A DNA stretch of 64,000 nucleotides from Heterotrichella gracilis. Its lineage: Eukaryota > Sar > Xanthophyceae > Tribonematales > Xanthonemataceae. The stretch lies in contig JAULBX010005553.1 of assembly GCA_032358255.1 (NCBI GenBank), positions 62,001-126,000 of the forward strand. Reading direction: 5' to 3'. Positions 35,061 through 64,000 of the stretch are shown piece by piece. The notes beneath the pieces are model-generated. The model made no database searches. It was given only the letters and a program-made list of their open reading frames with translations, and was not told the DNA's origin. A program made the translations under genes and the position numbers. The stretch's first letter is position 1. Each line of letters opens with the position of its first letter.

Positions 35061-38000
35061 TCACATCTTCCCCTGCTGCCCCCCGTGCGCCTCCAGCGTG
35101 AGCAGCATGTCGTACGCGGGCAGGGTGAGGAAGTCCTTGAGGGTAGGGGACAGGCACATGGCGCGGAACAGGTCGGTGGCGGCGCGGTAGTGGCCGCGTT
35201 GGAAGGCGCTGGGGCCAACCTGGGGGGCGGGGGAGGGGCAACATTAGAGTTTATTGCTGAGATTGCAGCAATAAGGTTCCATTCAGAAATTTTGAGGTGC
35301 AAACGTATGTGCCGCTGTTCCTTAATACAAGAATGGGCATCAAAGTGTTCCGGTACGCGCAAACTGTCACTACCAGCGCAGGTGAATAGACTAAACCTTG
35401 GCCAAGCGTTGTTGTACCCCCTCCCCCTCCCCACCCACCTGCTGCTTGATCCCCTCCACCTCCTCCGCCAGCACGGCCTCAAAGCGGGGGGGCGTGAGCA
35501 CCTGGCCGTCGTCAAGCACAGCTCCATGGTGGAGCCACTGCCAGATCTGCAAGGGGGGAAGCAGATGACCAGCGAGGAGGGGGGGGAGGCGGCTGCAGGT
35601 GTGCAATGCTGACAAGTGGGGGAGGAGAAGAGGCGGCCAATGGGTACCATAGCGGTGCCCGATGGGTGATGTTGGAACGGTGCTGACGAGGTAATCGATA
35701 ACGCGGCCAAGAGGGTCCTATGGGTGAATGCATCCCACCTGTGGCCACTCAGGTAGCATGTAGCACAAGGTCGCAGATTATGGCATACTTAAATGTGGGT
35801 GTTGCAACTTGGATATCCTTGTGTGAGGTTCCATCATGGGTGGTAAGATAACAAATAGGAATATGGCTTAATACCCTTGCGTAGGGCTTTTATGTCACGA
35901 TTCCATGCACCTGCATCCTCAACCAATAGTGTAAACATCCTCCATTCACTAGTTCACTTCCTAGAACCGTGGGTTGCCTGCTAGGGCATTGCACCATACC
36001 CTAGGGTGCCATTGGGGTTTCCCCCCGCTCACCTGCGTGCGGCTAATCTCCGCTGTGGCCGCATCCTCCATAAGGTTGTGGATGGGCACGCACCCGTTGG
36101 CACCCAACCACGCCGCAATGTACAGGATTCCTACGCTGATGTTGGCGCGCAGGCAGGACACGGTGCGCGGGCCGGTGGGGATCTGCGGGTCAGGGGAAAA
36201 TATGTTCATATTCTTGTGAAGGGCAAGAATGTGTGGCGTGTGATGCATCCCATCTGGGGCATGCTTGGGGGTGATATCAGTGAGGCCCCTAAGGAAAATG
36301 TGGCGCACAGGACTGAACATGGTAGGGTGGCTTTGGCACACTTCTAAAGCAGAGATGCTCCATCTGAGATGTAAGAACAGGGTCCCATGCAGCAGCGCAG
36401 CCAGCTATACCACCCCTCACAGAAACCCTTCCCTAGGGTCCGCACTCACCGCCAGCAGGTCGTCCTGCCCCACCACCACGTCCTCCCTCTTCCTGTGGAT
36501 CTGGTTGGGACCCTTCATGTGCTTGTCAAACACGCTGCGCGCCAGCGGCAGCAGCCCTGGGTGCGCCACCCAGGTGCCATCATGGCCGTCAAGCACCTCC
36601 CGCTCCTTGTCGGCAAGCACCTTGGACATGGCGGTCTGGCAGGGGGGAGGGGGGTGTCAGGTCAGGGACAAGTCATGGCACTAGCTACATGGGATCCATA
36701 TACTAGGTATCAGATAAACAGTCTACAGATCTACCAAGCATCAGATAATACTATATCCCAAGCATGGGATAAACGGTTTATAATTATATCCTGCTGCGCA
36801 CGGCGCAATAGCCAAGGTCCCCCTCCCTCGGCACAGGCCCCACATACAGCCCCGCTACCCAGCACATTCCAGCTCCCCGCCTCCCATCCCCACCTCGTTT
36901 GCCTTGGGATCGTCCTTGATTGGGATCTGCGCCGCCATGCCGCCCATTGCGTGCACTCCCCGCCTGTGGCAGGTGCGGATGACCAGCTGCGTATAGGACC
37001 GCATGCAGTGCTGCGTCATGCCCACCGCGGCGCGGTCGGGCATGACTGCGCGCGGGTCTGCGCGGCGCGTCTTGATGAACGAGAAGATGTAGTCCCAGCG
37101 CCCGCAGTTGAGGCCTGAAACGGAGGCGGGGGAAGGGGGTTTATAATGTTACTGTACTGTGCAGGGTGTACAGAAGGACTGCTCAGGGCTTGAGAAAGGG
37201 AAGTGTAAGGAATTTGAGCAAGGCTTTGCTGAATATATATTTTGTGCAAAAGTTGATTGTCCAGGGTGTACATCACACTGCTTCAGGGTTTTTCAAAAGC
37301 CCTTTACAAGGTCTCTCTCCCTCCCCTCCCCTTTCCCAAGGTTCCTGCCCACCTGCCGAGTGCTGGCGCAGCTCGTACAGGATCTCATCCATCTCGAATG
37401 CTGCGGGCAGGGTCTCGATGAGCACCGTTGCCTTGATGGTGCCTGCGGGTACCCCCAGGGTGCGCTGCGCCTCCAGGAAGATGTCGTTCCACAGGCGGGC
37501 CTCAAGGTGGCTCTGCAGAGGGAGGTGAAGGGCAATTGTATGGTTGCGACTCTCAGTATCTGTCTTAATTTGCGCATGGAGGGGGATTGTAATAATCCAA
37601 TATCTAATCCAATCCGACATATGATTCTGAGGAAGGGGTTTTTGAGGAAGGGGTTTTTGTGATAATGTGCTTGTTATTCATGGGGTTCCTTCATGCACTA
37701 AAGAGGGCCCTTTTAAGGTACAAATGGCGCTTGGCGTCGCCCCGCAATGAAGAGCACGGCATGGCATGGAAACCACCATCCCTCCCCAGCACTAACAACC
37801 ACAGAGTCCCACATGCCTCTTGTGAACACAATAGTGCCAACATAAACCATGCACCTTCACCGCAAACCTTCCGCACCTGCATCTTGGGCAGGTAGAAGTA
37901 GGGCCCCGACCCGCGCTGCAGCAGCTCGCGCGCGTTGTGGAAGAAGTACAGCCCAAAGTCAAAGACGCCAGCTGGCACCCACTTGTAGTCCACCAGCACG

Positions 38001-38478
38001 TGCTTCTCCCACAGGTGCCACCCCCGTGGCCTCGCGATCATGACCGCCACCTTGGGGTTGAGGCTGTAGCTCTTGCCGGAGCGGGGGTCGGAGAAGGTGA
38101 TGGTGCGGCGGATGGCGTCGCGCAGGTTGAGCTGCAAGGGGGGGAAGGGAAGGGGAGGGTGAAGGGAGAGGGAAGGGCCGCCGGGGGTATGTGGTAGGAT
38201 TAGGGAGTACGGCGCCACGAAATCTTCACATTTTCATGATTTTGTGTTTATTCTGACAGCCTTGAGACCCAATTAGGTCCAAATGTTCTGCTTGCTCCTA
38301 CAATGCCTGGCGGTGTGCAGGCGTGCCAAACAGAAAGCCCTACAGTAGGGTTTTAGTGTGGCCTGCATGGAGACCGGTATGTTGGCAGCAGCAGAGATTC
38401 TTGCGCACCTGGCCCATCACCATGTTGTCCAGGGTTGGTGCGTTGGAGTCCTCAAAGTCTGGCATGTACACGCTGGCT

Positions 38479-38510
<32 letters not shown>

Positions 38511-39160
38511 GTCTGTGGGGCCGGTGATCTCCACGCGCCGGTCCTGCAGGTCGTCTGGCAGGGGGGATACCTTCCAGTCCGACTCACGCACCTGGGAAAA
38601 CGGGGATGGAGGTGGGTGAAGTGGTGTTTCACCGCGCAGGGGTGGTGGCCAAGTGTGGTGGGCCAAGGTGGTGTGTGACAAAGGAGAGGGTGGGGAGGCA
38701 GCCTTGCGCCACGTGGCCACGCAGGAGAATAGTGTGGGTTGACAGTAGAGTTGGTACAGTGCAGTAGACATCAATGGGCCATTGCGGGTCCTATTGTAGC
38801 TAGGTCACTGAATGGCTGCAACACAGTGTGGGTTGGTGTTAAGTGTGGGTGGTGCTGCATGTACAGTGCTGGGCTCAAAACAAGTGTGCAGGAACAAGTG
38901 TGCAGTTGCCAACAAGTCCCTGTCACTGTACTCACATGGCGGGTTTCTGCCAGGAAGTTGGGCTTCTCTCCTGCGTCAAAACGTGACTGCACCACCTGCC
39001 TGCGCTCAAGCAGCTCCTCCACTCGTGGGGTGAACTTGCGCGCCAAATTGGCCACGAAGGCAAGTGCCTCGGGCGTCAGTATCTCGGCATACTCGGGCTT
39101 GAAGTCCCCCAGCAGGACAACTCCCGGGAGCTTTGGGACCCCTCCGTTGGTGTACGGCAT
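35061..39160 (-). CDS. MLS: malate synthase (glyoxylate cycle)
   Basis: Condenses glyoxylate with acetyl-CoA to malate. Nine exons: 39160-38936, 38591-38409, 38131-37877, 37512-37353, 37114-36894, 36635-36450, 36182-36033, 35546-35439 and 35219-35061; 1647 nt, 548 aa, the usual size of isoform A enzymes. Family blocks in order: [20 protein letters not shown], then [56 protein letters not shown] then [20 protein letters not shown]; and [32 protein letters not shown] contains the catalytic Asp region; [20 protein letters not shown] and [11 protein letters not shown] follow. As read it ends GGQQGKM, lacking a PTS1, but the ATG-TGA end overlaps a strong donor (AT|GTGAGT), so a further exon is possible. 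It is head to head with isocitrate lyase. Confidence 0.96.
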
Positions 39161-41260
39161 TGTGTTGGGCGATAGTACAAAAGTTACCTGGGCGATGCAG
39201 TCAACACGGAGTTAACGTGATGTGGGGCACCAAGTTCAGGCACGACGGCTAAAACACGGACTGTACAGAGGAAAATGGTGGTCGATGTTAGCCCAAAGTG
39301 TGCTGCTGAGTGCATTGCATTCATACAACGTATCAACAGGAGATGGCAGAGGGGTGAGCCCACAATGCACCAGCTGAGCTTGGATGCCCATTTTCGATAT
39401 GAAAAGGGGCAATACAGAGGGCATCCGCTCAACACATAACAAGTGTACAACATGGTGTGTCGCATTCTGTGCGCTGGTCGTAGTTTTATCAGCACCCGCC
39501 GCGGGCACCAGGTCTAAAAGCAACTGGCACCAGGCACATTGGTACTATGTCTGCTTGCACAACGCAGAGAAAAAGCACTGTCAAGACATCACGTACCAAA
39601 GAGTTCCAGTAAGCACCGTCAACAGGAATTCTCCACAGCACGCTGCACTCGCACTGCTATTCCGCCGACACTTTCCGACACCTTCGAAATGAACGCACGG
39701 AATGTTTCGCACAGTGGGCAGAATCGGGGTGTTTGTGGCAAACGGTTAAGAACCCATCAAGGCCTGGAGTATCGCCGCTGTTGTTAAAGAGCCCTGTGTA
39801 GGCTACAGTGTGTGCTGTGCAGCCGGAGGAGGCCACTCGTGTCGACGTGAAGCGATGGCACCCTTGCAGCAAATGCCGTGCTGGCGCTGCAGCGACTCGG
39901 CTGCCTCCACACTGGGTACCCAAATGTCGGGGTGCAAAATTGCTCATGTGGACCGTCACATGGACTACCTTTAGTATTCATAATCCCTGAAATTTCTACC
40001 TTTAGATGAGACAGACAGTGGGGGAGGCAATTTGGGATCCCGAGCTACTCACAGTACATCCCGAGTATTTAAACAATGCGTCCCATGAATACGTTTTGCC
40101 CAATTGGGCGATTCCATGGTGGGCGTGGTTTACTTCATGGTCACCAGCAGTGCTGACTCGGCGCACATGAGGGGTCGATTTTGGGCATTTTGCCCATGTG
40201 CTTGCCACTCTGGGCTGCTGTTTTTAAAAAACGTGTTTGAAAATGCACAGGTGGCGGCGTCCGTGTCGTACGTGGAGGCCCCTGGCCAGCTGACGAGGCA
40301 CCCAGTTGCCCCTTGGCTGGCCCCAGCGAATCCGCCACATTTGTGCAGCCCCCCCAGCGCGCCCACTCGAGTGCAGAAAGTTCCGAAAGCTTTGGTGCCT
40401 ACAAAAGCCCATCAAGCCTCAATTCCCTATCCAAACCTTGCTTGCGAGTGTTATTGCGTCTCCTCTGAAGCCCAACTTCGTCAACATCAGGGCTCTGCCG
40501 TCCACACTGTCGCGTCACACTTGCTCGCAAGGTAAGGGCACAGTGGGTATGCATGCACTGGGTGATGCACTCGTGCACGACGTGAGCTGAACCTCATTGG
40601 GGCTTCCACACGTTGCATTGCACGCTTTAAAAGCTTATCTATGCTTTGAAACCGTCTCGGAACAACCCACCGAGCTTAATGCTGACAATTGCCGTTGCAA
40701 AGACGACCCATGTGCACAGCCCGCTGAATGCATAGGACGTGACGGATTCTCTCCGTGGCCTGTGCCTTCTTTGCCGCAAAACTACTTGAAAAAGCTGGTG
40801 TCTGTCTTTTCGGTATGTGAATTGCTATGTGCGACGGTCCAAACCCCTGCCACTTTTGAATTCTGCTGTCGAAACCACACCTCGCATCATCTCGTTGGTT
40901 GGACTTTGCCCACTGCGCCTCCACTCTGGGTCTTGATGGGCACAATTCTTACTTGCTAACTTACCGATGCGGTCCCCCAATGTGGTTGTGTTCTGTTGTG
41001 GCGGCGGCTGTAGGGTTGGCAGTGCGTCGGCTGTTCTGACTGCGCGCCCAGTACAAAACCTACGTAACCAATTCCTTACTGTCGAAACCTTCGCATGCTG
41101 TTGCCACCCTCTAGAACGTGACCCAATAAGACACCTTGTTATCGGTTGGTGGCACACTGCACAGCTCTGCGACTTTGGTATCCTTGACCAACCCCCATGT
41201 TATCCACTTGCACTCCACATGCCAGCTGACAAATGTCGGCTTCTCCGCAGGTTTCCCACA
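39161..41260. promoter_or_regulatory. shared 5' intergenic region of malate synthase and isocitrate lyase
   Basis: 2.1 kb separate the two divergent glyoxylate-cycle start codons. It must contain both promoters and 5'UTRs. A CTCCGCAG acceptor ends at 41250, ten bases before the isocitrate lyase ATG, so that transcript probably has a 5'UTR intron. Visible elements are a TATTTAAA at about 40,066, a CCCAATTGGG palindrome at about 40,098, a small GGGCATTTTGCCC palindrome at about 40,183 and a TGCATGCA at about 40,549. No protein-coding exon is supportable inside. Co-regulation from this region is inferred from the layout only. Confidence 0.6.
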
Positions 41261-44056
41261 ATGGCCTCCCAAATCAAGGTCCCAGAGGGCCGTTTCGACG
41301 GCATCGTGCGCCCATACAGCGACGAAGACGTGCTCAAGCTGAGGGGCTCGGTGAAGATTGAGTACACACTGGCAGACCGCGGCGCACGGAAGCTGTGGGA
41401 GCTGCTCCACGACGAGCCCTATGTGCACACACTGGGGGCCATGACTGGCCAACAGGTCAGTGTGTGTACTGTATTGTTGCCTTTTGATATCAGCTACATG
41501 GGTAGTGAAGAGTTTGGTGATGACTCATTCGAGTCCTGGCGGCATGCACGCCCACTTGGAACTTCCGACACTGATGATGCATTGGTGGCTGGTGCTGTTA
41601 TGTTGCTCATCAAGGCTTACTGTTCTCAGTAGTTTCTCTGTTGCCGCTTGATTGCCCAGCACGCTCATCCCAGTTGCTGTGACTCACTATTGCCTCATGC
41701 CTGGTGGCTGTCTCAAGCGTTCTCCCTCCCCTGACCCCCTTGCTGTTCCACTCCCCCCTGCAGGCGGTGCAGCAGGTGCTGGCTGGCCTCAAGGCCATCT
41801 ACTGCTCCGGCTGGCAGGTGGCCTCCGACTCCAATTCCTCAGGCCAGACCTACCCAGACCAGAGCCTGTACCCAGCCAACTCGGTGCCAATCCTGGTGAA
41901 GCGCATCAACAACGTACGGCCCCAGGCAACCCAAACGTTTCTGTGTGACACCCCCTTGTGCCTGCAGAACCCTTTTGGACCTGCACCTTGTGCTGCGTGT
42001 GTCGTGTCTGTCCTAAGATTGTATGGTTTCCTGGCAACTGCCCTCTTTCGCCTCCATTGTCGTCACAGCAGAGTACTGACGCAGCACCTCCCTTCCCCTC
42101 CCACAGGCCCTGCAGCGCGCTGACCAGGTTGAGCATTCAGAGGGCGGTGCCAAGAGGGACTGGTTTGCGCCCATCATCGCCGACGCAGAGGCTGGCTTTG
42201 GTGGCCCGCTCAACGCCTACGAGCTCATGAAGGTAAAACCCTAAACCCTAGACGTCTCTGATTCCAGTGCCCTACCCTCTTCTGTATCTGGAGCTGCAGA
42301 TCAATGACATATTTCTTGCTGCATTCACCAGGCCTCTGTGTTAAAAGCTCGGCACATACTTGGAGGTGCCACATCCCTTTGCCACCCGTTACTATCCTGT
42401 TGTCACTCAACCACCCACTCTCAACCTCACACCCCCAACCCCCCCTCTTCCCCTGCAGGGCATGATCGAGTCCGGCGCTGCCGGCGTGCACTTTGAGGAC
42501 CAGCTGTCCTCGGAGAAGAAGTGCGGCCACCTGGGCGGCAAGGTGCTCATCCCCTCCTCCCAGGCCATCAAGAACCTGATCGCAGCCCGCCTGGCGGCTG
42601 ACGTGGCGGGCGTGCCCACCGTGGTCGTGGCGCGCACCGACGCCCACTCTGCGCAGCTGCTGACCTCCGACATTGACGAGGTGGACAGGCCTTTCTGCAC
42701 CGGCAAGCGCTCCCCTGAGGGCTTCTACTACGTCAACTGCGGCATCAAGGTGGGTGGGGGCTGGCGGTGACGGGGAGGGGAAACCCTAGATAGGGTTGGT
42801 AATTCTGTGATGGTGGGTCGGAGTGTTCTGGATTGCGACACCTGCTTTTCTGTTGGCTGGAGATACTTTCATCAGCCAGTCCCTCACCTGTCCCCCCTGC
42901 ATGTTGATCCAGCATTCTGTGGCTTAGACCATGAGACAAGTTGCACCCTGCCTGGTTGTAACCATGGTCTAACCTCTTCCTGCAGCTGGCCATCGCCCGC
43001 GCCCTGGCGTACGCCCCCTACTGCGACATGGTGTGGTGTGAAACCAGCACCCCAGACATCGACGAGGCCAGGGAGTTTGCGGAGGCTGTGCGCGCAAAGT
43101 TCCCCAACAAGCTGCTGGCCTACAACTGCAGGTAGGGAAGAAATACTTTAGTAGGGTATTGATCGTATTGTGGGTATTGTCAGAATCCAATGCATAGGTA
43201 GTGTAGCCCTATCACCTGATCCCATGTAGACCTATCTTGCATGGCGACTTAAAAAGTGCATACCCTATCTACAGTTTGGTCCAGTGCATGACGGTCAGCA
43301 CCAAATGCACTGTTGGCAGGTTTTAATGGTGCTGTGCTATACCATGCATCGCTGTCTTGTTTGCTATATTCAAACAAAGGTTGCTGTTATCACGTATGTG
43401 AGTACTCATTCACCCACCCCACCCCACCCTCCCCCGCAGCCCCTCCTTCAACTGGGAGCGCCACCTGTCCAAGGACCAGTGCACCACCTTTCAGAAGCAG
43501 ATCGGGGAGATGGGGTACAAGTTCCAGTTTGTGACCCTGGCGGGCTTCCATGCGCTCAACTACAGCATGTTCAACCTGGCCAAGGGATATAAGTGCGTTA
43601 ACAAGCCCCTTAACCCTAAAACCTGCAAGTGCTTTGTAGCCATGTACGTGTAGCCACAGACATAAAAAAAGTACCTGGAATGCATGTGCTGATCTGCACA
43701 CAGTTGGACACCACAGCTGCCTCCCCACACATGCTCACCATAGATCACAGTGCATGTGGGCTACGAACTGTATCATCCAAACGGAATCTTCTCATTGCCC
43801 ACAAGCTGTTGAACACATTTCAATTCCCGCCTTACTCTCATCCTCACACCCCTCCCCCCCACCCAGGACCCGCGGCATGGGTGCCTACTCGGAGCTCCAG
43901 CAGGCCGAGTTTGACGCCGAGAAGGATGGCTACACCGCCACCAAGCACCAGCGCGAGGTGGGCACCGGCTACTTTGACGTGGTCAGCAACGTCATCACCT
44001 CCGGCACCTCCTCCACCACCGCGCTCAAAGGCTCGACCGAGGCGCACCAGTTCTGA
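41261..44056 (+). CDS. ICL: isocitrate lyase (glyoxylate cycle)
   Basis: Cleaves isocitrate to glyoxylate and succinate. Seven exons: 41261-41455, 41764-41913, 42107-42232, 42459-42749, 42986-43131, 43440-43592 and 43867-44056; 1251 nt, 416 aa. Diagnostic features: [35 protein letters not shown] (metal/substrate Asp residues); [20 protein letters not shown] with the catalytic-loop Cys signature [33 protein letters not shown]; and [11 protein letters not shown] (the C-terminal SPSFNW signature). The length suits a compact algal-type enzyme. The C-terminus ends TEAHQF, without a PTS1, so a cytosolic location is likely. The ATG lies just after a likely 5'UTR-intron acceptor and is followed by a plausible N-terminus. 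It is transcribed away from malate synthase. Confidence 0.97.
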
Positions 44057-45495
44057 GCGCAGCGTGCCGTGGGTGGGCAAGGAGTAGGGGGGTGGCGGTA
44101 GTAATGGCGTGAGTGGGTGGCTGGTGGAGCTCTTTGCGCTGATGCACCATTCCAGCTGCAATCTTTGCCAGTGCCTGCCCGTGAAGGTCATGCGCGGTGT
44201 GGTGTGGGTGTCGCGGTGTTGGGCTGTTTGTGGATTGGCTGGAGCATTGTGACGTGCCAGATGCACCAGTCTATACCTACCCACCATATCCATTGGCCAT
44301 ACACACTGGTCTCAAGTGCTATTGATTTGCACTAGTTCTAGTCGCAATGAAAACGTTTTTGGGGCACATGCCCGGTATAGACTTTTGTGCTGCTACGGTA
44401 GTTTTTGTATTAGTCGTTTGTATAGCTTAGCAATTTGTATCATCAGAAACAACCTCCCTAAGTTTTGATGGGGCGCGTTAGTCTTCATGTTATTACCACC
44501 TTAGTAAAGGGTTGTGCAATGGGTTTCTGCTGAGGAGGGCATGTGGACATGTCACCTCCCGTTTTTGCATCCCAGTTGCCAACTCAACAAAATCTAGTGT
44601 AGTATAGCCCAAATAGATTGACATTCTGGTTTTTTCTCAAGGCCAGGGTATAGCTCCGGTCACCGTGACCCAAGGGCGTTTGCGCTGTCCTCATGACCTC
44701 AAACAGTTTGTTAACCATAGAACGCATGCATAGTGGTCCATTCCAATGGCACCTGTCACACATAGAGTTGGTATTCAAGATTATATCGATTTGCATATGA
44801 AAGAGCGAGTGAGCAAGTTCAGCACACAGTGTAAGAAATAAGAGAAGGAAATGGTAGTTTATCAATGAGTGTGCGTCAAATTTCGACAGTGGCAAGTTGG
44901 GATTTCACTCAGCGACTGATCCAACTTCCTCCCGCAAAGAAAGCATGTGCCTCTTCAATGGAATGTGCACCCACAATGACTGACGGTGCTCAGCTGCAGA
45001 CTGCACTGAGTGCCTTTGTGCTACCAACAGTATCTTCAAAATATTTACGCCTGTTTTGTGAACATACACTGTCAAGCATCAGTGATTTAAAGGTTCGTTT
45101 ATGCTGCACATAGTGCGCACCCTGACATTTCTACTATGTCATATGTGCGTGGCATCATAATTCACAACTTGCGCTGCATGGTGGTGGCCGCCACCAGGCT
45201 GATGCACTGGGTTTGTGAAGTTACCATATCGAGGAAGACCAAATTGGAGGTGGTTGGGGACAGGGCTACAGCTGTGAAGATGGAGGAGGCTTGAAACCCA
45301 GTTTGCAATAAAACCCTTGTTTAGGGTTTCAGCCCAGTCATGTCACTGACATGGCATGTGGGTTTGCTTCAACACTGAAAGCCGCGGCGCAACGTTGTAC
45401 AGCATATATTTTATCAGCTTCAAGAGTTTACTAGGCCACAACTTGGAAGCAACGAGATTGAATGGTCGCCAGCTAACACTTGAACACTTGTTCGC
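44057..45495. other. intergenic region between isocitrate lyase and the amine oxidase
   Basis: About 1.4 kb between two genes on the same strand. The first 300 bases are probably the 3'UTR. No exon or RNA gene seen. A short AAACCC...GGGTTT inverted motif occurs near 45,311-45,331. Confidence 0.5.
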
Positions 45496-48400
45496 ATGGC
45501 AGCCGACAAGAGCACGTTTTTCCCTGTGGTTGTGGTGGGCGCAGGGGTGGCGGGACTGGCTGCGGCCAACGCACTGAGTAACCAACTGGGGGCGGACAGG
45601 GTGCTGGTGGTGGAGGCGGGGGGACGCATAGGCGGACGCATCAAGGAGGTAGGCGTACATTGATGCCCATGGGCCTTTTGCTCCCCACCGTATCGCAAAC
45701 TATAGACACGGGTCTTCTGGTACACACTGGATATATGAAATGAACGTAAAGTGCTAGTACTAGGCAGGGGACGATGTGCGTTGGCTGGTGCCAGGCCAGG
45801 GCAGTATCCATATGCATGCATGCATAAACATGTTTCTAGACATCGCCCGCATCGTCGGCAGAGGATGTTAACACTCTGATGCAACGCTGGACGGCTACAT
45901 TTGCGCTGATGAACGTGTTGTTGCCCGCGGCACTGAGGCAGGAGGGTCTTCTGCGCTGTATTGTGCGGCAGCCCGTAACCCTGCCTGGCACCAAGCACCA
46001 ACCCCCGCCTGCCCTGGGATAGGGTTTCACTGACGGTCAGCATCCCCACAGTGTGACCTATCTAGGGTCTCACACACTGTCAGCATGACACATGTGCCAT
46101 AGGCTAGGGCTTCAGACCCTGTCAGCGAGACGCCGTGTGCCCTACGCAAGGGTTTAGGGCCAAGATTGGGGCCCCATATCACCTGACGTTGTGTGGTGTG
46201 CCAGGTGGAAGGCATAGCCCCCTGGCCAGTGGCGCTGGGCCCAGAGTTTGTGCATGGCGCCAAGTCATCCCTCAAGGTACAGTTGAGCACCTTATATGCG
46301 CCAGATACTTCCACGCCTTCGTTGCCCCACCCGTGCATACCCTGCATGCTCCAAGCGGAGAGTTGCACCACATGCGCTTCAAGGGTGCACGGCGCATCCT
46401 GGAGTGGCCTCAATGGCGCAGTGTTTGGGTGCATGCGGGTGATGCCTCGTGCCCCATGTGACTTCCATCAGCGAGGGTGGATGCCCATGCATTTGGGGTC
46501 CATGATTTCCTAAACGGGCTGCGCCACGCAGCCCAATTCTAGCCATGCACAGAGGCCACAAACGCCTGAATATCTGACTGCATGCCCTGCGCATATGCAC
46601 TTATGTGTTGCAGTGAATGTAATTGATATCTGGTTGCATGTAGCATGGATTTTGAAATTCATTTCTGCATCAATGCAGCAGGTATTCAGTGAACCAACAG
46701 CACACCATTGGGTCCTTTTGCACATTGGGAATGAGGTAACACAGCGGCCGAGATGCATTGTGTGGTTGGTTGCAGCGCATCTTGGATGAGATGGGGTGCA
46801 CGCTGGGGGAGCACAAGTGGCCTGACCGATGGTACTTTGGATCGGAGGGGCGGATGATTGACAGCGACACCAAGGTGAGCGTGGCATATATGTGGGCAGG
46901 GGAGGGAGGAGACACAGCGTTGTAAATAGTAGAGTTGGTGTAACGTGTTGCTGGGGTATATATTGAGTACTTACTGGTGAGCTGGTTGCTGTGCGTGAAC
47001 CCACATGGTAGGGATCTTCGCTGTGCATGGCATCAGACAGGATGCACTGCTGTGCACCATGTCATTTGTTCAAGTGGAGGCTGTCCAATAAACCCTCAAG
47101 TTGATGTCAAAAGTCCTATTGCCTGATTACCAACTTCCCTCTCTCCTGCAAACTGCATGCATGTTTGCCTTTGCATTTCAGGATCCAGACGTTGAGGCTG
47201 TGAACCAATTGTTTGCCTCGGTGGGGGAGCTGCCTTACCCAGACGCTGATGTGGCGGTTGAGGATTGGCTGAGAGCGCAGGGGTGCAGCGAGCGCCAGGT
47301 GGCCATTGCAGATGCCTGCTTTGCAAATGACTTTGGGTGCTCACTCCGACAGCTGGGCCTACGGGATGTCATCAGTGAAAACAGGATGTGGGACTCGGGT
47401 AAGGAAAGTCGCATGTGCAGGGATTAGTAAGATGATGATTTGTTCTTGTCTGAAGTTGTCTGAAGAAAAATGTTTGGGCGATCCCTGTGCATGTGTCCTC
47501 GCCCATCTAGTCCTTCTCACTCATGCCAAGTAAGGAAGGCAATATACAAGAATCCACAATTGCACATGGGAGAACATGGGATGCTGCATTTGCAAGGCCA
47601 ATACTCTGGTTGCTGGGTCATGATAATTGCCCATGGGAGAATATTTACAAGGCCAATACTCCTTCAAGGTTGCTGGTTCACCATAGCCAGGCCAAGCAGC
47701 CTGCTCATGCGCACATTTCCGCCATGTCCAGGCGAAACCTACCTCCTCATGGACAGACCCCTGTCCTCCGTTGCCCACCACCTTGCCAGGAGATTAAAGC
47801 ACATCAGGCTAAACTGGGGAGTGTCGCACATCCAGCACAGTCCCCAAGGGGCAATACTACATGGCCCTGGGAAGGAAGTTGTGCGGTGTCGACATGTGGT
47901 GGTGACTGTACCGCTCAAAGTGATGCAGATGGGCAGGCCTGGGTTCGATCCTCCTCTGCCTGCTATTAAGGTGGCAGCAATACAGCGCGTGAAGATGTCA
48001 AACGCGATCAAGGTGAGGCTTTTGAGGAAATGCGTGGATCCATGCAGGGGCATGGGAAGGGCTTTCCAATGGTAAAACTCCTTGCAGTTTCTTTCTCTAT
48101 GTAAGGAGGTTTGCCTGCCGCTAGCATACGCATGAGCATGCTGCACGCGACATGCACCTAGAGGGTACGGGCAAAAGGCTTGTGCCGAGAATGCTGAGGC
48201 CGGAAATGGAAATCCACATGCGCGGCAATGGACTGCTGATGGCTGCGGGTTTGGAGCCTCAATGCACAGGATAGTAGTGCCCTTCCCTTATACAAACTCC
48301 ATATTCGGAATAAATACCACTGATCATTGACAGCGCCGCGCAGCATTTTCTTTGTTTTTGCTGTTGCAAACCACGCCATGCACCCCTGCCTGGCCCCCTG

Positions 48401-51071: not shown

Positions 51072-54000
51072 ATGCGTCCCAGGGGCATCAGCAGGAGCTC
51101 TGAGGGAGGACCTGCTAGGTGGTGGTGGTGGCAGCTGCTGGTACTGGTGGCGTGCCTAGGTGGGGCTTTAGGGTTTAGGGTGTCACTAGGTGGGCCTGGC
51201 TATAGCCAGGCACACTCTTCGTACTTTTCCATCAGCTTGCATACACGTGCAGCTTGGCTTGACCTGTGGCAATCACCTGTTGTCGGGCCGCAAGTGTTTG
51301 CACCCACCGGTGTTTCAGACAGATGTCCCTTCCTGTTCTACTGCCACGCACAGTTCTGCTACCTATTTAGACGTGCAACGCACAGTTCTGCTACCTATTC
51401 AGACATGCTTGACGCACGTGTGACTGTATAAAATGCAGGTGTGTCACAAGGACAGCTTGACTCTCCACCGCCACCCTCCCCACCACCAGCACCTCCCTCA
51501 CCTCGTCCGCCCCCTTCCCCGCGGCCGCCACCACCACCACCACGCCCGCCACCGTCACCACCACGTCCACCGCCATCACCACGGCCCCCGCCACCATCAC
51601 CACGCCCACCACCATCGCCGCGCCCTCCACCTCCATCTCCACGGCCGCCACCACCACCGCGACCCTCACCACCACCACCACAACCACCACCTCCATCACC
51701 ACGGCCGCCGCCACCACCGCGCCCCTCACCGCCACCACCACAACCACCAACCCCATCACCACGCCCGCCACCATCACCACGCCCACCACCATCACCACGC
51801 CCACCACCATCACCACGTCCGCCACCATCACCACCACCGCCGCCACGCCCACCGCAATCCCCACCCCCGCCCCCATTCCCACCCCCCTCCCCACCAAACC
51901 TCTACCCAGGGTCTTGGACCCTCCTGGGCAAGTGGGCAGGCGCAATCGGGATCCACGCCGTCACCTTCCCCGGCACCCCCCACGTGCTGTTCTTTGAGCG
52001 CAACCACACCACCTCGGCCAAGAATGGGACTGTGCTGTACCCTGGTAACCAGTGCCTGCTGGTAGGGGCGCGCTGGGGATGGGAAATGAGTGTTGTGAAT
52101 CCCCGCAGTATAATCCGGTGTATGTCCAGGGTGTACTAAAAGTGGTGTACTAAATTTGTCACATTACATGCGTGCCCCCAGAGGGATGCATCTAGTGACA
52201 GTAGCCCAACGCCAGGCATTCCTAAAAAACGTGTGGATTCAGTTAACTAAATCCCCGCACTTAAATCCGGTGTATGTCCAGTGTGGTGCGGTGGGCTGGG
52301 GTGTGGGCCCCAAACATGCAATCCCCATTCCCGCCACCAGCACCACCACCACTACCATGCCGCAGGCTTTGAAGCCCCCCAGCCACTACCACCATCTTAC
52401 ATTATTTTAGAAATTACTTTTTAACTTAAAGGGGACAATATTTCAGTTGATTAAATTGCTCCAGGCCGGACTAAGGGTTAAGGCTGTGCCGCACCACCAC
52501 CACCACCTGGCTGACCCCTCCTCTCGCCCCCTTGCCCCGCAGAACCTTGAGAACCTGCAGTACGAGCAGGGCTCGCTGTTTGACTACACCACCGCGCAGT
52601 TCATCCCCGTCCACATGCAGTACACGGCATTCTGTGCGGGCCACGCCCTCACGCCGGCTGGAGCAGCGCTGGTGGCAGGGGGGAATGGAGCGGTGAGTCG
52701 ACAGGAACATGGCGTTATTGAAGCCACGAATGGCAATCTTGCTGCCATTCAATCATGCCTGTACCACAGCAATAGGTCACGTACGTCATTGTGTTACATC
52801 TGGCGGAACGGGGGCTGTTAATATTTACATTGCATGTGGACGGCTCAGCTGGGGTACTTTTCCAATGCTTGCACATACTTCCATGTTCTCCTCGCACCAT
52901 TAAGGGTGGCAGTCCTGATGCCCCACCACCACCAGTACTCCACACCTGGCGCAAATAGCGTACAGGCATGTGCCCTACCACATATACATACATTCACTAC
53001 AGAACATAACACGTCCAACCTTGGCTCACATGCGCATGGCCACATAGCAGCATCACGTCTAAACCCTAAACCCTACATTGTCTGTTTACCAACAGCTGCC
53101 TGGCATGTATGCAGACCAGCAGCTACTTTGCGAACGGCCTATCAGCCCTACAGCTGTTTTCAGCAGACTCCCAGTGCGACACCTGCACCGGGTCAGCCAA
53201 AACCCTACCAAAGCTGTCCGCCCCGAGGTATTACCCTAGCATACTCACATTGCCTTCGGGCAAGATGGCCATTATGGGTGGATCCAGGGTCCCAGTCACC
53301 ATCATTCCAACCATCGACCAGACTCTGAACAGCCCCAGCGTGGAGATTTTGGACCCCGTCACAAGTCAGCTCACAAATCTGGGAGAGGTGCCCTGGCTGG
53401 TGGATTCCTGGCCCATCAATTTGTACCCCTACGCCACAGTGCTGCCGGGGGGTGCGGTGTTGATCATTGCAGGTGGGGTCACCACCCATCAACTGAAAGC
53501 TAGCAATGGCAAATCCCAATCCCTCGTCAGGCCCATGCAGCGCCCTCAATAGCTGGCGTGCAACCCGTCGTCCTCTAAGCATTAACCCAACACTCCGCTG
53601 CATCAATCTGTCACCCTCCTCGTGCTTACATTGAAGCACTCCTTACTCCCCACCCTGCTTACTTCCAAGTCCTGCCTGCAGGCAAGCTCGTCCAGATCCT
53701 GAGCCCCGACACTTTCCTCAAGGACCCAACCTTCCCTGACCTCCCCAGCCTGACGGTGTGCGTCAACTTCCCTCAAAGCGCCGGCATCACCCTACTCACC
53801 TTGGACCCCTATGCTTCACCACCCTACAAAGCAGAGGTGAGTGCGAGCGGGTGCTGGATGCAGTGGCACACACTCCAATGTAGGCTCTGCAAGGCTGAAT
53901 GCTGATCCACCTTTGTGCCAAACAGCAAATAATAATAAAAACAATAAGGGACTGCAAAGCTGTACGTAGTATCCTGTGCACCACATGAGCGACAAATGTG

Positions 54001-56685
54001 CAATGCGCATGGCCTCAGAGTGCCCATCCGATGGTAACGTTGTTCTGGTGTCAGGCTAGTACAAATGCGGGTGCAGTAGTACCCCTTGGTTACGGCATTA
54101 ATCGCAGGTGTCACCCATCCCATAGCGCTATCCCTGGATTGACATTCCCCTCATGACCATGCGCCCCTTGCAGGTGTTGGTGGTGGGTGGCAGCACCGCC
54201 GACTTCCCGACAAAAAACACCCCTGCCTCATCCTACTCCTACAGGTATGTAATTTAAATTGAAGACTATGTAATATCACTGTTGAACACGGGACATTGCC
54301 TGATCATGTGCGTCATGAAAGGTCACAAGCATTGCATTGCATGTGCGTCATGCGCGCACACCATATGGAATCCAGCTCATTACATCACCGCATGTGCATG
54401 GGTCCAAGTTTGTGGATAACCAATTGAGTTGTTTTGTATTGATCAATGCGTAAATTCCTTAATACTTTAAATATAACACACCCACATGCATGCGTGTCCA
54501 AGTTTGTTTATGGGCGCATCGCATGGCCACATCACATGTGCCCCATATGTGCCCGCAGGCTGGACATCACATCAGCCATAGCACCAGGGGGCGCAAGCAA
54601 TGGATCAACCCCGGGGACATGGCAGCCTGCTCTGATGCCCGCCAGGAGGGTGTTTGGGGATGCAATAGTGTTGCCGGGCGGGAGCGTTTTGGCAATCAAT
54701 GGGGCTGCAGAAGGTACGCTGCTGCTGGGGTGCTTCGTTTTTAGTTATTTGCACATAATTATTGGTGCTGAATTGATGCGTGAGTGTCACAAGGCGTCTA
54801 GTCGCAGACTGCAGTGGATACCTCCTCACCCCAACCCCCTGGCGCCTGACCCCAAACCCCGTCCCTGCCATTGCCATTGCCAGGGTATGGAGGAGGGAGC
54901 TACAACAACCTCCAAGCCACCAAGTTCACACGAGGCCCCGCGCTGTACGATCCCAGCACAAACACCTGGGGATCCCTGTTGGCTGATTCCGGGATTGCCC
55001 GCGGGTACCACTCGGTGGGGATGCTGCTGCCCACAGCTCAGGTGAGGATGGGGTGCCTTGCTGGCGGGGCACCGGCTCCTTGATTTGACCATTGCCGAGC
55101 CCACACCTGCCAACACTAACCATCTTGTAGTGCATGCCAGTGTTTAAATTGAACACTGTCTAGCTGAGGTACATTTGGTAGGTCTACAGCTCGAGTGCTT
55201 TGGGTCAACCTTTCCATTTAATATCTCTTTGATTTGAAGCCTTTCAGGGGTTATTTTTGGAACCAATACAATTCCACCAGCGCTGCTATGTTTTCCTCCC
55301 CTTCACACCCTTCCCCCACTCCAGGTGCTGGTGTCAGGCAGCGAGACCACCCGTGAAACCAGTGCACAGCTGTATGACCCGCCCTACCTAAGCACGGGTC
55401 TGCCACGCCCGGTCATTGCCGCGGCCCCAAATTGGGTGACCTGGGGGTCCACATTTGAGGTGCAATTCAGCGGGGTGACTTGGGACCCTGCAGTGGATCG
55501 CGTGGTGCTGCACCGCTACTCGTCCGCCACCCATGTCACGCACTTTGATGAGAGACAGGTGAGGGGAAGCAAGGATGATGCCCTTCTGAAGTAGAGTATA
55601 TCAATCTATGCAATGAATAAATTCAATATGTTTGTAGTACATATAACATGCATTCCCGCCTGAAAACAAAATTAGCGGACATGTATTGTTTTCTAAAAAT
55701 ATACATTCACTGTTATTCACTATTTGTACAAATGCACATCATGAGTTGTGTATGATTCTCCTGATGTCCTGAGCAACATATTCTGCAGCCCACAGCCATG
55801 CGTGCATGTAACACCCAATGCCTTTTGCAGGTCATCCTCCTTGCCAACCTCACCAGCGCCACCACCCTGCAAGTCACCTCCCCTCCCGACGCCACCATCG
55901 CCCCCCCTGGCTACTACATGCTCTTCCTGGTATCCACCGGAGTGCCATCCATCGCCATCGACATGCTGGTCAATGACGGGTCCAGCCCCCCAGACGCCCT
56001 CAAGGCCCCAAACCCACCCATCCCCGATGGGATCTACACCATTTTCCTGGCGGGTGGCAGCGCGTGCGCCAACAGCAGCCTGGCGTTGACGTCCATGGCG
56101 GCATGCGGGGCGGTCAGCACGACCCTGAGCTTGCAAATGGGGAATGTGAGCAGCGATGCAGGCCAGGTGCCCCTCACTCAGAGCTGGCTCATTCGGCGGG
56201 TGCCGGGGACCAACGACTCCTACCATGTGCAGGCAATGGCGCGATCGGTGGCGTGCTACAATTACCTCACGTCAGGCTCGCCCCCCTCTTGCAGCAACAC
56301 ACCCTCGCTGTTCTGGTACGATGACGATTCAGGGCTGCAGCGCATCCGGTTGCTGAGATCCCCAGCCTCCCCATCAAGCCCAGATGTTGTTGGAAACCCT
56401 CTCCCAGGGACCAACATGGGTGTTTTCTCCCTGGGGATCCAGAACTCTTTCAACCGAAAGTGCGCTGCACGGTTCCTCACCGCATCGCAGTGCCAGTCTG
56501 GCAAGACCAATGCGGTGGCGTACCAATCCCTGGTCAGCAGCAGCGGCATGTCCTGGTTTTCCCTGACCTACCTCGCTCCCCCTCCAGAGGAAGTAGTGGC
56601 GGCAGGGGAGTGGCGATCGCAGTGCGGGGATGCGGATTACAATCCCAAGCTTGCTGGTGGGCAGAGCGGTCAGACCGGGGAGTGA
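51072..56685 (+). CDS. secreted galactose/glyoxal-oxidase-type copper radical oxidase on a proline-rich stalk
   Basis: Predicted extracellular copper radical oxidase (aldehyde or alcohol plus O2 to H2O2). Ten exons: 51072-51159, 51439-52061, 52543-52692, 53115-53472, 53682-53836, 54174-54244, 54559-54713, 54884-55041, 55325-55558 and 55831-56685; 948 aa. It starts with a basic, then hydrophobic signal segment (RWWWWQLLVLVACLG). Residues about 37-178 are almost purely Pro, Ser and Arg (PPPSPRPPPSPRP), like hydroxyproline-rich wall proteins. The oxidase follows with all the hallmark sites: FCAGHAL (Cys of the Cys-Tyr cofactor, about 267), PRYYPSILTLPSGKMAIMGG (cofactor Tyr, about 324), RGYHSVGMLLP (axial Tyr and His ligand, about 575) and ATHVTHFDERQ (second His). 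About 210 C-terminal residues, Cys- and Trp-containing (QSWLIRRVPG, YNYLTSG), form an extra domain, perhaps beta-trefoil-like. The substrate is not determinable. Confidence 0.88.
51476..51890 (+). repeat. low-complexity CCACC/CCGCC tract encoding the Pro-Ser-Arg stalk
   Basis: About 415 bases of degenerate nonamer to dodecamer units (CCACCATCACCACGC type) coding for PPSPRP repeats. It creates long artificial open frames on both strands (His-rich on +, Val/Met-rich on -) that are not genes. Confidence 0.95.
52098..52290. repeat. direct repeat in copper-oxidase intron 2
   Basis: AATCCCCGCA followed by AATCCGGTGTATGTCCAG occurs at about 52,098 and again at about 52,250, a period near 151 bases. 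Probably an old tandem duplication within the intron. Confidence 0.7.
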
Positions 56686-63506: not shown

Positions 63507-64000
63507 ATGGTGAAGGTGGTGGTGGTTGGGGGCACCAACAGTGGGGTGGGCAAAACATCCATATCCATTGGCCTTATGGCTGCACTGAGGTGAGGTTTGT
63601 GCACGTTTTCCTGCGTTGGTGTTTCCTATGCGGTGGCAAACGCTAACACGCATTTTCCCTGCTCAGGAACCGTGGTCTGACCGTTCAAGCGTTCAAAGTT
63701 GGCCCAGGTAAGCTGAAGGTTGTTTTCTGGTTGTGTGAAACACTCACAGCGCCGCATAGCTTACTCACGGCGCATGGTGTGCAGACTTCCTGGACCCTCT
63801 GCACCACCAAGAGGCAACCGGGCGGCCCTCAGTGAACCTCGACGGCTGGATGCTCAGTAAGGAACAGAACCTGGCCACCTTTCAGCGGCACACAGCGGAC
63901 GCTGATGTCGCAGTCGTGGAGGGGGTGATGGGCCTGTTCGACGGGAGGGACGGGAAGACAGAGGACGGCAGCACTGCGCAGATGGCAAAGTGGCTGGGCG
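63507..64000 (+). CDS. CobB/CbiA-family cobyrinate a,c-diamide synthase (5' part only)
   Basis: N-terminal ATPase part of a glutamine-dependent amidotransferase related to CbiA/CobB, which amidates the a and c side chains of (hydrogeno)cobyrinate in cobalamin synthesis. Exons: 63507-63589, 63667-63707 and 63785 to beyond 64000; phases 2 then 1 agree. The P-loop [20 protein letters not shown] opens the protein directly at the ATG, with no organelle presequence. Then [33 protein letters not shown] and [20 protein letters not shown] followed by [11 protein letters not shown]. These are the characteristic family blocks (FKVGPDY-DP, NLD, VEGVMGLYDG, GSTA). The glutaminase half lies outside the window, so I cannot say whether it is complete. 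Most algae need external B12, so its role is unclear; a related amidation of another tetrapyrrole is possible. Confidence 0.88.

Follow-up and report, generated by a model that had tools for sequence, protein, structure and literature searches.

The 64,000-bp stretch of DNA analysed here (the window), which is free of any N, is part of a contig of 375,903 bases (C57) in an assembly of 68.5 Mb and 903 contigs. It carries a malate synthase gene (MLS) and an isocitrate lyase gene (ICL) as immediate neighbours in divergent orientation. Isocitrate lyase splits isocitrate into succinate and glyoxylate, malate synthase combines glyoxylate with acetyl-CoA to give malate, and it is these two enzymes that set the glyoxylate cycle apart. 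Both gene models were rebuilt by hand from GT-AG splice sites, and the features of the locus are as follows.

35061..39160, minus strand: malate synthase A gene (MLS), 9 exons, 8 introns, 548 aa
39160-38936, 38591-38409, 38131-37877, 37512-37353, 37114-36894, 36635-36450, 36182-36033, 35546-35439, 35219-35061, minus strand: MLS exons
39161..41260, no strand: intergenic gap, 2,100 bp, non-coding-like, weak repeats only
40532..41250, plus strand: candidate ICL 5'-leader intron, AAG/GTAAGG donor and TCCGCAG acceptor
41261..44056, plus strand: isocitrate lyase gene (ICL), 7 exons, 6 introns, 416 aa
41261-41455, 41764-41913, 42107-42232, 42459-42749, 42986-43131, 43440-43592, 43867-44056, plus strand: ICL exons

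In these hand-built models MLS, read along the minus strand, opens with an ATG at 39160 and its stop codon ends at 35061, ICL opens with an ATG at 41261 on the plus strand and its stop codon ends at 44056, and the start codons are 2,100 bp apart (39161-41260). The adjacency, the divergent orientation and the 2.1-kb distance claimed by the initial annotation were thus confirmed, and its gene models, which it had described as carrying catalytic signatures, were recovered with identical coordinates and with family names and motifs that agree. The MLS protein matched the NCBIfam model TIGR01344 (malate_syn_A) with an E value of 9.5e-245 over residues 27-535, which identifies it as a malate synthase A, and contains at residue 270 the motif [16 protein letters not shown], which we take to be the malate synthase signature. 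The ICL protein matched NF011645 (isocitrate lyase, NCBIfam) with an E value of 1e-222 in a single stretch from residue 9 to 416, and its match to the longer model TIGR01346 was broken into two stretches. With its 416 aa it lacks the plant/fungal insert and is an isocitrate lyase of the bacterial type; KKCGH, presumably the isocitrate lyase signature motif, lies at residue 177. The top PDB matches of the two proteins are also named malate synthase and isocitrate lyase, respectively.

All 14 introns of the pair (8 in MLS, 6 in ICL) are of the GT-AG type, and both genes are ordinary intron-containing nuclear genes, the identity of which is evident from the family matches and motifs, and the expression and activity of which are predicted from the sequence. 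No second copy of MLS or ICL was found in the 68.5-Mb assembly in a six-frame search with PF00463 and PF01274 (E up to 0.001), the first step of which is loose and in which all matches were confined to the MLS-ICL locus. Although bacterial contigs seem to be present in the assembly (C552, C893, C191 and C1, with uninterrupted, nearly full-length family matches), an assembly artefact or bacterial contamination is a most improbable source of the pair, because the window is without any N and the two genes hold 14 GT-AG introns.

The remaining coding-like segments give the context of the pair. Five of the ten segments of the window sent to Pfam matched something, and the neighbours named in this way are listed below.

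Nup93/Nic96 family gene
TP_methylase match slightly below the cut-off, followed by an RsmI_C match, also below its cut-off
FAD/amine-oxidase-like segment
galactose-oxidase-like domain
DEAD helicase

A wider glyoxylate cluster was looked for and rejected, as the matches to citrate synthase, aconitase and ATP-type PEP carboxykinase (PEPCK) all lie on other contigs and none on C57. The locus is therefore, as far as tested, a two-gene pair and not part of a wider cluster. The absence of these three enzymes from the contig and the unrelated families of the nameable neighbours are what a chance adjacency, without selection or shared origin, would also show. However, by a rough hand count of ~13 genes per 64 kb, and thus perhaps 14,000 genes genome-wide, chance alone would make two named genes adjacent in ~2 of 14,000 cases and divergent in a quarter of these (a hand estimate), and bacterial MLS and ICL are often linked, so that we consider chance improbable. 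Many pathway pairs could have caught attention, and the adjacency by itself is therefore suggestive and not proof.

The initial annotation had placed a shared bidirectional control region between the two genes. No coding-like stretch was detected in the gap when it was scored by the pair's own codon usage, and a third gene in the gap was also rejected on the basis of the Rfam search, which gave no match at gathering score, and of the absence of any tRNA in the window. A search of the gap against the assembly returned only the gap itself, and its repeats are short, imperfect and weak. Neither TATAAA nor TATAA is present in the gap on either strand; one TATTTAA lies at 40066, and CCAAT is found at several positions, as occurrences counted without a control. 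The gap exceeds the 1.3-1.4 kb that separate the pair from the next coding-like segments outside it. Its top plus-strand donor is AAG/GTAAGG at 40532 (9.6 bits), and a TCCGCAG acceptor lies 10 bp 5' of the ICL ATG. As this acceptor scores below the 6-bit print cut-off, compared with 8.5-19.3 for the known acceptors of the pair, the leader intron is a candidate only. If it were used, ICL transcription would begin 5' of 40532, perhaps at some 1.3 kb, instead of 2.1 kb, from the start codon of MLS.

Gene pairs with a bidirectional promoter are recognised by transcription starts less than about 1 kb apart together with co-expression; the 2.1 kb measured here separate start codons only, not transcription starts. 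A promoter or enhancer in 39161-41260 that drives MLS and ICL together, which would be compatible with either of the origins considered below, is suggested by the head-to-head order, by the gap being free of coding-like stretches and by the joint presence or joint absence of both enzymes in 166 of 175 algal transcriptomes (according to the accessible part of PMC6642084). However, the gap gave no positive sequence sign of it: the start codons are far apart, TATAAA and TATAA are missing, the repeats are weak, and the candidate leader intron would occupy part of the space. A shared control region is thus possible and unproven, and we regard it as rather unlikely that one drives the two genes.

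Neither protein ends in a peroxisomal targeting signal of the PTS1 type, the C-termini being GQQGKM in MLS, which is not of the SKL type, and EAHQF in ICL. No PTS2 motif was found in the first 60 residues. An SKL-type PTS1 hidden in an alternative MLS 3' exon was also rejected, as none appeared when 200 nt were read from each of the listed acceptors down to 34214. The PTS1 on MLS that would mark a peroxisomal glyoxylate cycle is therefore absent, and MLS may be cytosolic together with ICL. In this respect the MLS described here differs from Polytomella MAS1, which is reported to carry a PTS1, Polytomella ICL1 being without a listed signal (accessible text of PMC9637915).

Prokaryotic genomes were scanned with MLS, and gene order was read at the best 80 loci among the matches listed, which are up to 65% identical. 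At 50 of these 80 loci an ICL hit lies beside MLS on the same strand, with only 31% identity at two of them (L027 and L047; L numbers denote loci). The other 48 have an ICL more than 50% identical next to MLS on the same strand, in the order MLS then ICL at 31 and ICL then MLS at 17. Divergent or convergent pairs were found at none of the 80 best loci; 21 had no ICL hit despite at least 3 kb on both sides, and nine more, with short flanks, had none either. Of 193 genomes of the phylum Myxococcota, 143 matched MLS, and at the best 30 loci the order was MLS then ICL on one strand in all 30, with 79-150 nt between the matches. One of these 30, L166, repeats the genome of L008, and G004, the genome in which L045 lies, is listed under the phylum of L008. 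A single open frame spanning both genes was present in two (L173 and L177) of 79 same-strand pairs, made up of the 48 of the first scan, the 30 phylum loci and L114; an Anaeromyxobacter fusion is mentioned in the accessible part of PMC1630690. The highest bacterial identities among the sampled loci were 73% over 406 columns for ICL and 67% over 523 columns for MLS.

Trees of 48 rows were built with 47 of the 80 loci, after removal of the 30 without an ICL hit, of L027 and L047 with their 31% hits and of L013, the ICL of which is cut. Since these first trees hinted at myxobacteria, seven Bacillota rows were replaced by 14 of the 30 phylum loci to give 55 rows, and the sampling therefore leans toward myxobacteria. 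The window is the only eukaryotic row, so that descent of MLS within eukaryotes stays compatible with the trees. In the 48-row MLS tree the window and L008, L012, L015, L045 and L069 make up a set of six rows (support 100/94), and in the 55-row MLS tree the window falls in a 20-row group (99/98) that contains 17 of the 18 rows labelled Myxococcota, by labels assigned in this analysis, together with L045 and L069. The same 20-row group was recovered in the concatenated tree (99/92). A placement of MLS with mainly Bacillota and Chloroflexota was rejected (p 0.0038); no rejection was obtained for a set of a cyanobacterium and three Pseudomonadota (p 0.108).

The placement of ICL shifted between runs, from L012 to L045 and back to L012. 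A quick tree joining the window to L012 was discarded as unstable, the next careful tree, of 48 rows, having given L045 (78/86). In the 55-row tree, in which L156 and L163 are less than half filled, the window grouped with L012, of the Myxococcales (87/87), and within a set with L154, L158, L045 and L012 (76/82). For ICL alone, none of the other placements tried was rejected (p 0.315, 0.22 and 0.20).

Five groupings taken from one gene were enforced on the other. The six-row MLS set was 1.31 log-likelihood units better than the free tree on ICL (p 0.496), and the ICL set of five (window, L154, L158, L045 and L012) was 0.20 units worse on MLS (p 0.488). On ICL, the MLS set of the window, L008 and L012 was 5.5 units worse (p 0.398) and that of the window, L154, L012, L173 and L177 was 21.6 units worse (p 0.093). 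The ICL pair of the window and L045 was rejected on MLS (13.7 units worse, p 0.032), and this pairing was gone from the ICL tree once rows had been added. None of the five rows nearest to the window was common to both genes, compared with a median of 2 for bacterial rows, and two of the nearest ten, compared with 5.5. After correction for rows that are near everything, five of the eight nearest were common to both genes, with a rank correlation of 0.31. By these tests MLS leans firmly and ICL weakly to Myxococcota, and one shared bacterial source of the two genes appears moderately supported, not proven, with cross-tests that are mixed and in part count against it.

The two genes may also have arrived or existed separately, for example as a eukaryotic MLS and a transferred ICL, and have been joined later by rearrangement and kept for the benefit of co-expression. 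The Chlamydomonas reinhardtii genes for the same enzymes, ICL1 (Cre06.g282800) and MAS1 (Cre03.g144807), are unlinked by locus name, unlike the pair described here; the Cre prefix presumably gives the chromosome number, which would place them on different chromosomes. Separate arrival is also favoured by the intron common to plant and coelomate malate synthases, which suggests a eukaryotic line of this enzyme (accessible part of PMC1630690), by the few nearest rows shared by the two trees of the window and by the rejection on MLS of the ICL pairing with L045. Against it stand the firm grouping of MLS with Myxococcota and the little cost at which the larger myxobacterial sets of one gene fit the other. 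We regard such a separate history as a real possibility.

Our preferred reading, to which we give a probability of about 0.4, is the transfer of an ace operon of myxobacterial type that was later turned head to head. On this reading the proximity of MLS and ICL goes back to a bacterial origin of both, most likely in a joint transfer of such an operon, with ICL following MLS on the same strand. Once in the nucleus, both genes would have gained introns, the spacer would have lengthened and one gene would have been inverted, which would give the head-to-head order. Separate core promoters for the two genes probably lie within the 2.1-kb gap, and co-induction on two-carbon compounds or lipid may be the reason why the linkage was kept. 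If the pair is the relic of an operon, it illustrates how a two-gene pathway of bacteria can be taken into a nucleus at once and remain linked for long enough to acquire introns and new promoters. This bears on the gain and loss of the shunt as a unit across algae (accessible part of PMC6642084), as linked genes could be lost by one deletion. The gap is also a candidate two-way promoter, perhaps acetate-responsive, for algal engineering.

Our literature search, most subscription papers being outside it, turned up neither a green alga with linked ICL and MLS genes nor a report of a myxobacterial origin. An opposite-strand eukaryotic ICL/MS pair has already been published (PMC1630690, accessible part); what is new here is that both proteins are of bacterial type and that both trees lean to Myxococcota. 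The view of the initial annotation that the two genes are unlinked in most eukaryotes stands in part, as Chlamydomonas fits it, whereas the Nematostella pair and the nematode and Euglena fusions described in the same source do not.

The bacterial ace operon, in Myxococcota and others, resembles the locus in having the same two enzyme families as neighbours. However, its genes share a strand and form a single transcription unit, with 79-150 nt between the matches at the 30 loci and no introns, whereas the genes described here are divergent, on opposite strands, 2,100 bp apart and interrupted by 14 introns. The ICL of Chlamydomonas reinhardtii is bacterial-type too, and a bacterial transfer of ICL into chlamydomonads has been inferred (PMC1630690, as far as accessible). 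In Prototheca both ICL and MLS were called horizontally transferred, with the malate synthase of Chlorella in the same clade (accessible part of PMC11302234). Nematodes and Euglena have fused ICL-MS enzymes, for which bacterial transfer was proposed (PMC1630690, accessible text); both activities are physically coupled in these eukaryotes, as one bifunctional protein and not as two genes as here. A further likeness is to Nematostella vectensis, in which Kondrashov and colleagues (PMC1630690, accessible part) describe adjacent ICL and MS genes on opposite strands of a eukaryotic nuclear genome, in the not self-consistent wording 'convergent, 5'-5'', with a bacterial grouping, and ask whether an inversion of the ace operon or an artefact of the assembly accounts for them. 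Nematostella is an animal, the artefact was left open there, and the two loci are compared by description only. Still more tentatively, a single transfer of a myxobacterial-type ace operon may have given the ancestor of the alga both enzymes of the glyoxylate shunt, which would survive as a head-to-head, intron-filled and possibly co-regulated nuclear pair, in parallel to that of the sea anemone.

Downstream of the isocitrate lyase gene (ICL) and at the right edge of the window, the following features were identified:
45493-45648, + strand (as ICL), FAD/amine-oxidase-like segment downstream of ICL
51463-51855, - strand, valine/alanine/methionine-rich open frame
55828-56085, + strand (as ICL), galactose-oxidase-like domain downstream of ICL
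63784-64000, continuing at 184-5884 of L151, a sequence that reaches past the right edge, CobB/CbiA-like gene (AAA_26 above cut-off; GATase_3, E 2.4e-14) and, after it, a periplasmic-binding-protein-like match

Hydrogen peroxide is a frequent product of the FAD/amine-oxidase-like and galactose-oxidase-like families. The open frame at 51463-51855 looks like a low-complexity repeat and is probably not a gene. The periplasmic-binding-protein-like match after the CobB/CbiA-like gene is weak, below its cut-off, and the link of this region to cobalamin is drawn from names only.

In four other contigs of the assembly (C1, C191, C552 and C893), the matches to PEPCK, aconitase and citrate synthase are unbroken and almost full-length, whereas elsewhere in the assembly they are split exon by exon, which suggests that these four contigs are bacterial.

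ICL was also found at 55 loci on IMG/VR contigs classed as viral (L088-L142), with the malate synthase gene (MLS) immediately upstream in 10 of them within the retrieved flanks. These loci represent either a glyoxylate shunt carried by phage or wrongly filed bacteria. At one such locus, L114, the MLS and ICL matches overlap but do not form a single open frame. In two genomes labelled Myxococcota (loci L173 and L177), one open frame of >960 codons spans both MLS and ICL.
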